Below are positions 44,849-64,000 of a DNA stretch of 64,000 nucleotides, piece by piece; positions within the stretch are counted from its first letter, which is position 1, and every line of letters starts with the position of its first letter. The stretch is from contig SVAG01000004.1 in NCBI GenBank assembly GCA_015059545.1, positions 62,001-126,000 on the forward strand, written 5' to 3'. Source of the DNA: Lactobacillales bacterium (GTDB lineage: Bacteria; Bacillota_I; Bacilli_A; RF39; UBA660). The position numbers and the translations under genes are program-made. The notes below the pieces were generated by a model that was not told the DNA's origin, ran no database searches, and saw only the letters and a program-made list of their open reading frames with translations.

Positions 44849-45067
44849 GTAAATACAAAGAAAAAGAGGAGTAATTATAGGCGTTTTATAGAGAGTTAGT
44901 GGTAGGTGTAAACTAATAAACAAATATAATGAAGGTAGCTTTGGAGTAGAATATCTGAATATTTAGGATATTACGTAATTATGCGTTAAATAAAAGAGGT
45001 AATTATTTAATTACAAATTAAGGTGGTACCACGTATAATCACGTCCTTATATAGGATGTGATTTTTT
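44849..45067 (+). promoter_or_regulatory. T-box riboswitch (valine specifier)
   Basis: tRNA-sensing leader that allows read-through when uncharged tRNA-Val binds. The stem I elements AGAGAGTTAGTGGTAGGTG and TAAACTAATAA are present. The likely specifier is GTA (Val) at 44935-44937, in the context GGTAGCTTTGGAG. The T-box core AAGGTGGTACCACG is at 45020-45033. The terminator has 11 bp (45037-45047 with 45053-45063) and a T run. It controls an HD gene and valS, which agrees with the Val specifier. Confidence 0.93.
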
Positions 45068-58572: not shown

Positions 58573-60045
58573 ATGAATAATTCTAATAATGAGATGGACT
58601 GGGCAGGAAGTATTTTTAATCAACAACCAGTAAATCCAATAAATAATGTAGGAACACCACAAACAAATAGTATTCCTCAAGTAGAAAATAAAATACAACC
58701 ACAACAAGTGAATCCAACAAGTAATGTAGGAATAGCTCAAACAAATAGTATTCCTCAAGTAGAAAATAAAGTACAACCACAATCAATAAATTCAACAAGT
58801 AATGTAGGAATGGCACAAACAAATAGTATTCCTCAAGTAGAAAATAAAGTACAACCACAATCAGTAAATTCAACAAATAATGTAGGAATAGCTCAAACAA
58901 ATAATATTGCTCAAGTAGAAAATAAAATACAACCACAACCAGTGAATTCAACAAGTAATGTAGGAATAGCTCAAACTAATAGTGTTTCACAAGTAGAAAA
59001 TAAAGTACAACCACAACCAGTGAATTCAACAAGTAATGTAGGAATAGCTCAAACAAATAATATTCCTCAAGTAGAAAATAATATGAATCAACAAACTAAT
59101 AGTTCTCTAAATACTCAAAGTGATAATGAAAATTTATTAAGAGCTTTTATTGGAAAAAATTATGAAAAAATAACGACAAGAGTATTTAATTTTGCAGGTT
59201 TCTTTTTTACAACGTTATATATGTTTTATAGAAAAATGTTTTTATATGGATTAATTGTATTTATATTAAATTTAATTATTATTAATGTTATAAAAAATAT
59301 GTTTGTTACATTAGCATTTAATATTTTTGTTGGTTTATTTGTTAATAGAATATATTTAATGTATGCTAAGAAAAAAATTAAAAATATTGAAAATGCAAAT
59401 CCACAAAAAAGTGAAAGTGAAAAAGCTGTTTTATGTGAAGTTAAAGGTGGAACAAGTGTAGGTAATGTTATTTTAGGATTGATTGTTGAATTTGTAATTG
59501 CAGTTGTTATTGTTATTATCATGTCTCTTGTAGGTATTGCATCTATTTTTGGTAGCTTATTTAAATCACCAATGGATAACTATGAAAAAAATTATACGGT
59601 TGATGGTCCTTATGATGGTTCAATGAGTTATAGTACAACAGTTAAACTTAAAGATGAATTTGATATGGATGTACCTGATGACTTTGTAGAAGGATTTATG
59701 CATGATGAAGCTAGTTATAAATATGAATATAGTGAAAGTGAAGGTTCAACAAGCATATGTAGTTTTTCATTTGCTAAAGTACTAGGATATTCATCAGCTT
59801 CTAAATTAGCTAATGAAATGTCTAGTTATTATAGTAATAGTGAAGCAACACCTGTAGCAGTTAAAATAGTTAATGATATTAATTGGTATCATTTCTCATT
59901 TGATGGAATGATGGATATGGATGAAATGTATTTAATGAATAAAGGAAAAGATGTATATTTATTACACTTTGAAATAGATGATGATCGTTTAACAGAATGT
60001 AATAAGTATAAAAATGAAGTTATTAATTCAATAAATGTAAAATAA
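58573..60045 (+). CDS. Membrane protein with six 26-residue N-terminal repeats
   Basis: A 490-residue protein. Residues 21 to about 173 are six repeats of the type NSTSNVGIAQTNSIPQVENK plus VQPQPV, a disordered Asn/Gln/Pro/Val tract with no Cys or aromatic residue. A central membrane module (about 180-330) with FAGFFFTTLYMFYRKMFLYG resembles DUF2628-type domains. After a hydrophobic segment (about 297-325) an extracytoplasmic C-terminal domain (about 335-490) contains GPYDGSMSYSTTVKLKDEFD. The repeats lie on the cytoplasmic side if the first membrane segment goes outwards. Function unknown. Confidence 0.75.
   Translation: MNNSNNEMDWAGSIFNQQPVNPINNVGTPQTNSIPQVENKIQPQQVNPTSNVGIAQTNSIPQVENKVQPQSINSTSNVGMAQTNSIPQVENKVQPQSVNSTNNVGIAQTNNIAQVENKIQPQPVNSTSNVGIAQTNSVSQVENKVQPQPVNSTSNVGIAQTNNIPQVENNMNQQTNSSLNTQSDNENLLRAFIGKNYEKITTRVFNFAGFFFTTLYMFYRKMFLYGLIVFILNLIIINVIKNMFVTLAFNIFVGLFVNRIYLMYAKKKIKNIENANPQKSESEKAVLCEVKGGTSVGNVILGLIVEFVIAVVIVIIMSLVGIASIFGSLFKSPMDNYEKNYTVDGPYDGSMSYSTTVKLKDEFDMDVPDDFVEGFMHDEASYKYEYSESEGSTSICSFSFAKVLGYSSASKLANEMSSYYSNSEATPVAVKIVNDINWYHFSFDGMMDMDEMYLMNKGKDVYLLHFEIDDDRLTECNKYKNEVINSINVK
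58633..59091 (+). repeat. Six in-frame 78-bp tandem repeats
   Basis: Units begin at 58633, 58711, 58789, 58867, 58945 and 59023 (the last incomplete). Each encodes 26 residues; differences are mostly single bases. Copy number is likely to vary between strains. Confidence 0.9.
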
Positions 60046-61605: not shown

Positions 61606-61634
61606 TTGACAAAAAAAGTTTAATATTATAAAAT
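61606..61634 (+). promoter_or_regulatory. Promoter of the first structured leader
   Basis: TTGACA (61606-61611), 17-base spacer, TAAAAT (61629-61634). The predicted start point, about 61641, is the first base of the conserved RNA element. Confidence 0.8.
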
Positions 61635-61640
61635 AACATA

Positions 61641-61750
61641 GCAAGTGAGGAGATATAAGCAATTTATGTGAGCTATCTCGGGTTAATAGCCTACACAATT
61701 ATTAAAGTAATTGGAGTCACGAATAATAATTTATTCGTGGCTTTTTTGTA
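61641..61750 (+). ncRNA. Candidate ON riboswitch, copy 1
   Basis: Aptamer-like region 61641-61720 with terminator 61715-61747. Helices: closing P1 GTGA / TCAC (61717-61720); P2 GAGATA / TATCTC with internal loop TAAG / GAGC and a short apical stem; a short GG / CC hairpin; a variable hairpin CAATTA / TAATTG; then GGAGTCAC. The terminator pairs AGTCACGAATAA with TTATTCGTGGCT, using the P1 3' strand, so P1 and terminator exclude each other. It precedes the unknown gene at 61782. No known riboswitch consensus was recognised. Confidence 0.65.
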
Positions 61751-61781
61751 TTTTTTTACACGAATAAGAAGGAGGGATAGT

Positions 61782-62405
61782 ATGATAAAAAATTTGGAAA
61801 CATTATCTGATAAGGAAAAATTAAAAATGATATTGAATGGATCTAGTTATGCAATGCATGTAGCTTATTCAGATAAAGAAATGTATGAAAAATCTAAAGA
61901 AGGAAAATTAGAAAATATAGAAGAGTATCAAAAACGTGATATAAATATTCTTTCATTATTAGAAGGATTAGGATATCCAATGGATGAATTAGGAACATAT
62001 TTATATAAAGATGTTATTGTAGAAGTGTATGAAATTGTAAAAGATGTTTCTAAAAGAACTGATATGGATAAATGTAGAGATTTAATGAAAGAATTAAATG
62101 ATGCTTATTCTAATTTTTATAGATGGATTGCACGTGATGATAAAGAAATGGGAATTGCATCATTTCATTTATATATAGAACAAGCTATATCAAAAATAGA
62201 TGAAGAAGCTATTGATCAAGAATTAGCTATTAAAGTATTTGGATCAAATCCAGAAGATATGAATTATGGATTACAAGCATTCCAATTAGCGTCTTATGTA
62301 GCTAATCATTATTCAATGAAACCAGAATTTAACAAACAAAAAATAATGAGTTTATCAAATTTACAAAAAAACATTAAATTAAAAAATGCAAGTGAGTGTG
62401 TATAA
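61782..62405 (+). CDS. Unknown helical protein under structured-leader control
   Basis: A 207-residue cytoplasmic protein, probably all helical. I choose ATG 61782 (GGAGGGATAGT upstream); the upstream open frame runs through the leader RNA. The segment ILSLLEGLGYPMDELGTYLYKDVIVEVYEIVKD loosely recalls the Spo0A C-terminal DNA-binding layout (GYxYLxxAI), but the match is too weak to call. Other features: ISKIDEEAIDQELAIKVFGS and an ending KLKNASECV. Its last codons overlap the second copy of the leader RNA, so translation could disturb that RNA's folding. Confidence 0.7.
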   Translation: MIKNLETLSDKEKLKMILNGSSYAMHVAYSDKEMYEKSKEGKLENIEEYQKRDINILSLLEGLGYPMDELGTYLYKDVIVEVYEIVKDVSKRTDMDKCRDLMKELNDAYSNFYRWIARDDKEMGIASFHLYIEQAISKIDEEAIDQELAIKVFGSNPEDMNYGLQAFQLASYVANHYSMKPEFNKQKIMSLSNLQKNIKLKNASECV

Positions 62406-62495
62406 GTATTTAATGCGAGCTACACAGGGATAAAATCCTACACGTGAAAACACGGAGTCACAATCTATTTAATAGATATGATTCTGTGTTTTTTT
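62388..62495 (+). ncRNA. Candidate ON riboswitch, copy 2
   Basis: Aptamer-like region 62388-62461 with the same conserved blocks as copy 1: GCAAGTGAG, TATAAG, GAGCTA, CCTACAC and GGAGTCAC. P2 is TGTGTA / TACACA here instead of GAGATA / TATCTC (five of six pairs changed with pairing kept). The variable hairpin is CGTG / CACG with AAAA loop. The terminator pairs ACACGGAGTCA (62450-62460) with TGATTCTGTGT (62479-62489), again consuming the P1 3' strand. It starts inside the upstream gene's last codons and precedes the ABC exporter. Confidence 0.65.
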
Positions 62496-62506
62496 GTATT
62501 CTAATA

Positions 62507-62538: not shown

Positions 62539-63519
62539 ATGAAGATTATAGAAGTAAAAAAATTATTAAAAGAATATAAATATAAAGTAAAAGATGAAAA
62601 AAAAGGATTCTTTTATAATTTATTTAATGAAAAAGAAAAAGTATTAAAAGCTGTAAATAATATTTCTTTTGATATTGAAGAAGGAGAAACTGTAGCTTTT
62701 ATTGGACCAAATGGTGCTGGTAAATCAACTACAATAAAAATGTTAACAGGTATTTTATATCCAACAAAAGGTGAAATAAAAATATGTGGATTAACACCTA
62801 TTAAAGATAGGAATGAATTAGCTTATAATATTGGAACTGTATTCGGACAAAGAAGTCAATTATTACCAAATTTACCATTAACAGAAAGTATGGAAATGTT
62901 TGGAACTATGTATGATATGGATAAAAATCAAATAAAAAAAAGAACTAAAGAATTAGTAGCGTTATTTGAATTAGAAGAATTTATAAATCAACCTGTTAGA
63001 AAGTTATCTTTAGGGCAAAGAATGAGAGCTGAAATCGCAGTTTCATTAATTCATAGCCCTAAAATTATCTTTTTAGATGAGCCTACAATTGGATTAGATG
63101 TAGTCTCAAAAAAGAATCTAAGAGATTTATTAATCAAAATTAATAAAGAAGAAAAAGTCACAATCTTTTTAACAAGTCATGATACTGAAGATATTCAAAG
63201 TATATGTGATAGATGTATAATCATAAATCATGGAAAAATAATTATTGATACTTCTACAAAACAATTAATGAAAGATTATGTAAAAAATAAAAATATTATT
63301 ATAACTCCTAATACAGTATTTGAAGAATTTCCTGAATTAATAAATGGAGTAAAATATGAAAAGAAAAGTAAAAACCAAATAATTGTTAATGTAGATACTG
63401 AAGTAGTAAGTACTCAAAAAGCTTTACAAGATTTAATTAAAAAATTAGACATAGATGATATTAATATTGAAAATGAATCACTTGAAAACATTATTAGAGG
63501 TATTTATGAAGAAAATTAA
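62539..63519 (+). CDS. ABC exporter ATPase, COG4586 type
   Basis: A 326-residue ATPase of the COG4586 class that pairs with two DUF990-type permeases. An N-terminal extension KKGFFYNLFNEKEKVLKAVN is typical of the class. Walker A GPNGAGKST, Q-loop GTVFGQRSQL, signature LSLGQRMRAE, Walker B IIFLDEPTIGLD and H-loop LTSHDTED are all intact, and a C-terminal regulatory domain spans about 240-326. The permease gene overlaps its 3' end by 14 bases. Relatives export toxic compounds in some bacteria. The upstream structured leader suggests induction by its ligand. Confidence 0.92.
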   Translation: MKIIEVKKLLKEYKYKVKDEKKGFFYNLFNEKEKVLKAVNNISFDIEEGETVAFIGPNGAGKSTTIKMLTGILYPTKGEIKICGLTPIKDRNELAYNIGTVFGQRSQLLPNLPLTESMEMFGTMYDMDKNQIKKRTKELVALFELEEFINQPVRKLSLGQRMRAEIAVSLIHSPKIIFLDEPTIGLDVVSKKNLRDLLIKINKEEKVTIFLTSHDTEDIQSICDRCIIINHGKIIIDTSTKQLMKDYVKNKNIIITPNTVFEEFPELINGVKYEKKSKNQIIVNVDTEVVSTQKALQDLIKKLDIDDINIENESLENIIRGIYEEN

Positions 63520-64000
63520 ATTTGCAATTACAGTCATAAAAATATTTATGAAGAATCAAATACAAGATAAAACAAATTTAATATTAGATGTTTTCAATAT
63601 GGTTTCAAGATGTTTAATAGTATTCTTACTATATGCATATATATTTAAGCTAAATAATGGAACTATAAATGGAGTAGATTATAAAACTACAATGTGGAGT
63701 ATGTTTATATATTTTGGTCTAATGATATTAAATATAAGAAGATTAGATAATATTATTATGACAGAAGTTAAAAGTGGTAATGTAGAAATGTTTATGAATA
63801 AACCAACTAGTTATTTATTAATTTCTTTTTATAAAGTTTTAGGACAAGGATTATTTTCGTTTTTATTTATTAGTTTATTGGGTTCTATAATTATGGCATT
63901 ATTTGTTGGAATACCAAATTTAAATTTATCTATATTTATTCCAACATTTATAATTACATTATTTTTAGGACAAATATTAGGATTAATGATATATGCAATA
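63506..64000 (+). CDS. ABC-2 permease, DUF990/COG4587 type (3' truncated by window edge)
   Basis: The first 165 residues run to the window end without a stop. Four hydrophobic segments are visible (about 26-47, 57-75, 101-131, 140-165), with NIRRLDNIIMTEVKSGNVEMFMNKPTS-type sequence between them, as in the permeases of COG4586-linked exporters (E-x-x-x-G-x-x-E/D-x-x-L/M-x-x-P). The ATG overlaps the ATPase gene end, with TTAGAGGT as ribosome site. A second permease gene is expected just beyond the window. Confidence 0.85.
   Translation, partial: MKKIKFAITVIKIFMKNQIQDKTNLILDVFNMVSRCLIVFLLYAYIFKLNNGTINGVDYKTTMWSMFIYFGLMILNIRRLDNIIMTEVKSGNVEMFMNKPTSYLLISFYKVLGQGLFSFLFISLLGSIIMALFVGIPNLNLSIFIPTFIITLFLGQILGLMIYAI

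Follow-up and report, generated by a model that had tools for sequence, protein, structure and literature searches.

Paired leader RNAs before a Spo0A-C-like gene and an ABC exporter: a probable orphan class of ON riboswitch in Bacilli and Clostridia

Two related leader RNAs occur in a 64-kb stretch of bacterial DNA (hereafter the window, meaning all of the stretch that was analysed), and we consider it likely that they are aptamers of an orphan class of riboswitches, turning genes on through transcription attenuation in response to a toxic, probably amine-bearing ligand. The nascent leader would fold either as a four-stem junction closed by a 4-bp helix, P1 (GUGA/UCAC), or as an intrinsic terminator, and the invariant joining nucleotides (G, UAA/AGC, UACA, and GAG) would form the presumed ligand pocket. 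In the absence of ligand, the terminator would win and the genes would be OFF; ligand binding during transcription would hold P1, and the polymerase would proceed into genes for export or detoxification. The ligand would be a compound that the cell exports or acetylates. If so, this orphan class would join the small list of riboswitches linked to such functions.

Two leader RNAs and the genes around them

The initial annotation had located two leader copies, at 61641-61720 and 62388-62461, and both are present there, each with GCAAGTGAG...GGAGTCAC; the pattern of shared words matches the window at exactly these two places and never matches in 100 shuffles. Matched by our covariance model with 73.7 and 79.0 bits, respectively, the aptamers span 61645..61720 (copy 1) and 62392..62461 (copy 2) on the plus strand. 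The promoter, the terminators, and the genes that follow the two copies are on this strand too. In copy 1, P1 is formed by 61645-61648/61717-61720, P2 by 61650-61655/61674-61679, and P3 by 61681-61683/61689-61691, while P4 runs from 61696 to 61713, and the joining regions J3/4 and J4/1 read UACA and GAG. In copy 2, the corresponding positions are 62392-62395/62458-62461 for P1, 62397-62402/62421-62426 for P2, and 62443-62446/62451-62454 for P4. As had been described, P2 keeps its pairing while changing from GAGATA/TATCTC to TGTGTA/TACACA, and the variable hairpin, here named P4, stays paired in both copies; P3 (GGG...CC) and a hairpin in the internal loop, P2b, are additions to that description.

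Copy 1 precedes the gene for a 207-residue protein (61782..62405), and copy 2 is located between this gene and an ABC gene, its conserved UAA being the stop codon (62403-62405) of the former. The ABC gene (62539..63519) encodes the ATPase of a DrrA-like exporter (PF00005, E=7e-31; TIGR01188 drrA below its cut-off), which we take to be of the COG4586 type, and it is followed by an open frame for the first permease (63506..64000), which runs past the end of the window; homologous permeases at related loci match PF06182 (ABC2_membrane_6).

As a single sequence, the 207-residue protein has no match in Pfam or NCBIfam, and a profile search against PDB sequences failed to recover Spo0A, so the relation to Spo0A considered here is one of fold only. 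In the AlphaFold2 model (pLDDT 83), residues 47-176 resemble the C-terminal domain of Spo0A (1fc3_C), with a VIA-align Z of 12.4 and an rmsd of 2.5 over 111 residues; the next unrelated rows reach at most 3.5, and for helical proteins Z values up to about 13 may lack specificity. The model thereby points to the fold of the DNA-binding (trans-activation) domain of Spo0A, and the earlier suggestion that the protein may act on the same compound as the RNA looks wrong in this light: given the predicted fold, a regulator is more likely than an enzyme that processes the ligand.

Two other features were observed on the 5′ side of the locus. A gene for a Bro-N domain protein (PF02498; 60759-61598), of a kind that phages and mobile elements often carry, lies directly 5′ of copy 1, and an in-frame 78-bp tandem repeat (58623-59081; 5.9 copies, 90% matches) falls within the N-terminal half of a putative membrane protein.

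A conserved and covarying structure

Over 140 unique copies were gathered from Bacilli and Clostridia, and their consensus consists of P1 (GUGA/UCAC), a G, the 6-bp P2 with an internal loop (UAA/GAGC) and the optional hairpin P2b, P3 (GG.../...CC), J3/4 UACA, the variable hairpin P4 with C-G as its first pair, and J4/1 GAG. The predicted architecture is a four-stem junction, and the internal loop resembles the UAA/GAN motif.

This leader structure is conserved and covaries. In a MAFFT alignment of 31 homologues that was not fitted to the structure, 95.9% of the cells are paired, as opposed to 77.1% after shuffling, and P2 shows double-sided changes at 6/6 pairs with 100% pairing. Across the homologues, each of the six P2 pairs varies on both strands while remaining 99-100% paired, and P1, P3, and P4 covary too; among 105 distinct sequences, 18 of the 20 pairs show double-sided changes in an alignment fitted to the model. 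In a blind scan for mutual information, the predicted pairs come out on top, joined by a non-canonical pair of the internal loop (positions 14 and 69) whose two letters are coupled, A-G giving way mostly to U-U. Because P1 is short (4 bp) and seldom varies, its covariation rests on few sequences; there is one clean double change, ACGA/UCGU, in locus L063. Since the scan of a genome collection selected some of the conserved letters, the fair test is offered by the 44 copies falling outside the scan pattern, and nearly all of these keep UACAC and GGAGUC.

Around 20 unpaired or junction positions are nearly invariant across the two classes, and these positions bear on the question of whether the junction is held by a small molecule or by a regulatory protein, as in the RNA targets of LicT or PyrR. 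An RNA-binding protein could yield the same signature, a single regulator of this kind could serve diverse targets in small genomes, and the first gene behind many copies in Bacilli encodes a protein with a fold of nucleic-acid-binding type, namely the Spo0A C-terminal-like fold. On the other hand, this gene follows only a minority of the copies (13 proteins in its cluster) and is absent from the clostridial first genes listed. Known targets of protein antiterminators are usually simple hairpins, unlike an element with so many strictly kept junction letters. We therefore regard a protein-binding antiterminator as unlikely and favour a ligand-binding junction.

Terminator overlap and promoter position

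Folding places the 3′ strand of the GTGA/TCAC closing helix inside the downstream terminator hairpin in both copies, as the initial annotation had noted. Terminator 1 (61714..61747; hairpin 61714-61743, U-run 61742-61747) has J4/1 and the 3′ strand of P1 in its 5′ arm, and terminator 2 (62451..62496, with a U-run after the hairpin) has the 3′ strands of P4 and P1. The overlap is general. Of 139-140 leaders, 129 have a hairpin before the U-run that captures at least three of the four P1 3′ nucleotides, whereas shuffling the downstream sequence gives an expectation of 57. This control is high (41%), since the fixed P1 strand readily finds partners in A+T-rich sequence. In many copies, the terminator also takes the 3′ strand of P4. 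The expression platform and the aptamer are thus mutually exclusive.

P1 appears in the minimum-energy fold of only 3 leaders, and forcing it has a median cost of 10.6 kcal/mol; in the window, copy 1 goes from -30.3 to -20.5 kcal/mol and copy 2 from -34.5 to -20.8 kcal/mol when P1 is imposed. These values imply that the ground state is the terminated one and that the default is OFF. From the mutual exclusion of P1 and the terminator, we infer ON control, in which stabilisation of the junction would prevent termination. A default OFF state with a weak 4-bp P1 might also be expected of an attenuator that senses folding conditions, such as temperature, Mg2+, or transcription speed, rather than a specific ligand; this seems extremely improbable to us, as the strict letters of the joining regions exceed what a pure energy switch needs and the regulated genes are those of detoxification, not of ion or stress homeostasis.

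The sigma-70-type promoter TTGACA-17-TAAAAT predicted for copy 1 is present (61606..61634), and promoter-like sites ending about 10 nt 5′ of P1 accompany 112 of the 139 family members, compared with 14 of 136 controls taken from stretches 200 nt further upstream; the copies without such a site are mostly second copies. This spacing is relevant to ribosome-mediated attenuation, in which a leader ORF would stall under translation inhibitors and disrupt the terminator, as occurs before many resistance genes. The regulated genes do look like a resistance set, but RNAs that start a few nucleotides 5′ of P1 are too short there to accommodate a ribosome-binding site. Only 16 of 141 leaders combine a start codon and an SD-like sequence, and it is the structure that is conserved and not the reading frames. 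A leader-peptide attenuator is thus not supported and seems extremely improbable to us, and we retain the reading of an aptamer coupled to a terminator.

A divergent copy (L038:1501-1575; G005:C13) has no terminator, and its J4/1 GGAG extends to an SD-like GGAGG before the start codon, in the place of the P1 strand, which suggests either that this copy is decaying or that it is a translational form of the switch.

Comparison with known riboswitches

A scan with Rfam had been proposed as a check that could remove the novelty of the element, and no known class matches: Rfam 15 gave no hit on either window copy, even at E<=10, or to the element in six diverse homologue loci at E<=1. As a positive control, the same library detects a T-box leader (44849-45051; RF00230, 135.8 bits) and a tRNA elsewhere in the window. 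In the literature that could be searched, which took in several motif-discovery papers but neither bioRxiv nor most subscription papers, we found no description of the motif; within the reach of Rfam and of these sources, it is undescribed. With an Rfam-negative, covarying element in which P1 excludes the terminator, the computable parts of the initial reading as a novel ON-type riboswitch hold.

Several known systems share some properties with this RNA. The yjdF riboswitch, which controls resistance genes and probably senses compounds that resemble xenobiotics, has a different architecture, and our element shows no Rfam match. Guanidine-IV and its variant Gd4v deserve closer comparison because they share GNAT and exporter genes with the element: they are likewise leader RNAs with an intrinsic terminator, located before GNAT and multidrug exporter genes and common in gut bacteria, Gd4v is likewise an orphan, and the ON control shown for guanidine-IV is the one we infer here. 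Nevertheless, guanidine-IV and Gd4v consist of two hairpins joined by a pseudoknot, with the terminator stem forming part of the binding structure (PMC7736828, PMC9788692), whereas here a four-stem junction is predicted, P1 excludes the terminator, and the terminator lies outside the aptamer. Furthermore, the main gene of Gd4v is a transaminase, and none was seen behind this element. We dropped this identity on the grounds of architecture.

The ykkC family (guanidine-I and its relatives) resembles the element in its eclectic downstream mix of exporters and enzymes, which made ykkC a long-standing orphan (PMC7266159), but there is no match in sequence or structure in the Rfam scans. SAM-I and its spermidine variant share the four-stem junction and terminator control (PMC10853860) but have other conserved letters, and an Rfam match is absent here. 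In the spermidine variant, moreover, the ligand raises termination before polyamine synthesis genes (PMC10853860), in contrast to the ON logic that appears to operate here before genes for export and acetylation. By these comparisons, the element fits none of the named riboswitch classes. It could still be argued that a divergent member of such a class, for instance of the SAM-I clan, guanidine-IV/Gd4v, or the T-box, was missed by the Rfam models, given the shared junction of SAM-I and the shared genes of guanidine-IV; the absence of matches at permissive thresholds and the unlike architecture of guanidine-IV/Gd4v make this very unlikely, and we treat the RNA as a class of its own.

Downstream genes and possible ligands

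Among the first genes behind the element (n=114) are 32 GNAT acetyltransferases (Pfam), 29 ABC ATPases, 5 MFS transporters, 3 nucleotidyltransferases, 2 S66 peptidases, and 2 nucleotide phosphodiesterases, the ABC ATPase being DrrA-like and accompanied by ABC2_membrane_6 permeases. The same kinds of genes are found in Clostridia as in Bacilli. Clostridial copies stand 5′ of GNATs that match NF007527 below its cut-off and that we take to be YhhY-type, and other clostridial targets are PseH- or SpeG-like GNATs and TetA(P)-like MFS transporters; one clostridial locus (L230) has an operon of an MccF-type S66 peptidase and two GNATs. Judged by these assignments, the downstream genes form an eclectic but coherent set for detoxification and export.

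Also clostridial is a perfect copy, with promoter and terminator, directly 5′ of a full glutaminyl-tRNA synthetase gene (L217/L224; G1244:C108 near 22698). This target is unique and may give a clue to the ligand. MccE, RimL, and MccF inactivate inhibitors of the aminoacyl-nucleotide type (PMC3817062), and the combination of RimL/YhhY-like acetyltransferases, an MccF-type peptidase, and a tRNA synthetase recalls a defence against such inhibitors. On the basis of this chemistry and of the synthetase gene, one may suppose that the RNA is a toxin or antibiotic sensor for an amine-bearing inhibitor, for example an aminoacyl-nucleotide inhibitor of a tRNA synthetase, that induces the whole detoxification set; we consider this possible, if rather unlikely. 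The set would comprise YhhY-, RimJ/L-, and PseH-like acetyltransferases, the MccF-type peptidase, nucleotide hydrolases, a spare GlnRS, and exporters, and tandem copies would sharpen the response. For the orphan riboswitch that we favour, the ligand, once found, would give a function to several uncharacterised GNATs and to the COG4586-type ABC exporter, and it could expose a toxin commonly met by gut bacteria.

The sequences upstream of motif-free orthologues of a GNAT found behind the element were searched for a known riboswitch that might name the ligand, and nothing relevant was found. Before one GNAT orthologue (L202; G785:C1 near 147633), the sequence looks like what is left of the 3′ arm of a decayed terminator, and it has no aptamer.

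Distribution and serial arrangement

The strict pattern matches in 28 of 288 genomes of the window's order, and the reversed pattern in none. A covariance model with a search of related genomes had been proposed as a further check, and strong covariation is seen in over 100 homologues. The model was built in two rounds (R1, then R2). Within the window's family (small-genome Bacilli), it finds the element at E<=1e-5 in 36 of 268 genomes, so that most lack it, and a survey of the class outside this family (296 genomes) gave no match at E<=0.1. When a species-level genome collection was scanned, at least 80 loci were recovered; the matches listed come mostly from uncultured Bacilli, including Candidatus Onthousia and Candidatus Ventrenecus, with some from Clostridia (DTU069, DTU070, Ruminiclostridium sp., and Caloramator sp.). 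The element occurs in 17 of 321 clostridial genomes overall, in 12 of 33 from the order to which DTU070 belongs, and in 21 of 195 from that of the Caloramator record.

Several candidates were discarded. Two weak matches of the phylum survey (L154 and L155) lie within coding sequence and are false, as is the candidate copy L046, and four pattern matches in viral contigs are all due to chance, in unrelated sequence. A clostridial copy had no match in plasmid and phage collections.

At 17 loci, two copies are found in direct tandem, and at 8 loci there is a gene between the two copies, as in the window. Where the copies differ in P2, the first is of the GAGATA, AGCACA, or a similar subtype, and the second is usually TATGTA or TGTGTA. 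This serial layout, with a gate before each gene and two subtypes usually in a fixed order, is unusual. In the window, gate 1 would act before the Spo0A-C-like DNA-binding protein and gate 2 before the ABC exporter, and such gates in series would be expected to give a steeper or a two-threshold response. The arrangement lends itself to studies of how the dose response depends on the stacking of riboswitches. At one locus (L101:4229-4343), the 5′ half of the aptamer is partly duplicated directly before an intact copy, which is probably the product of a recent duplication event.
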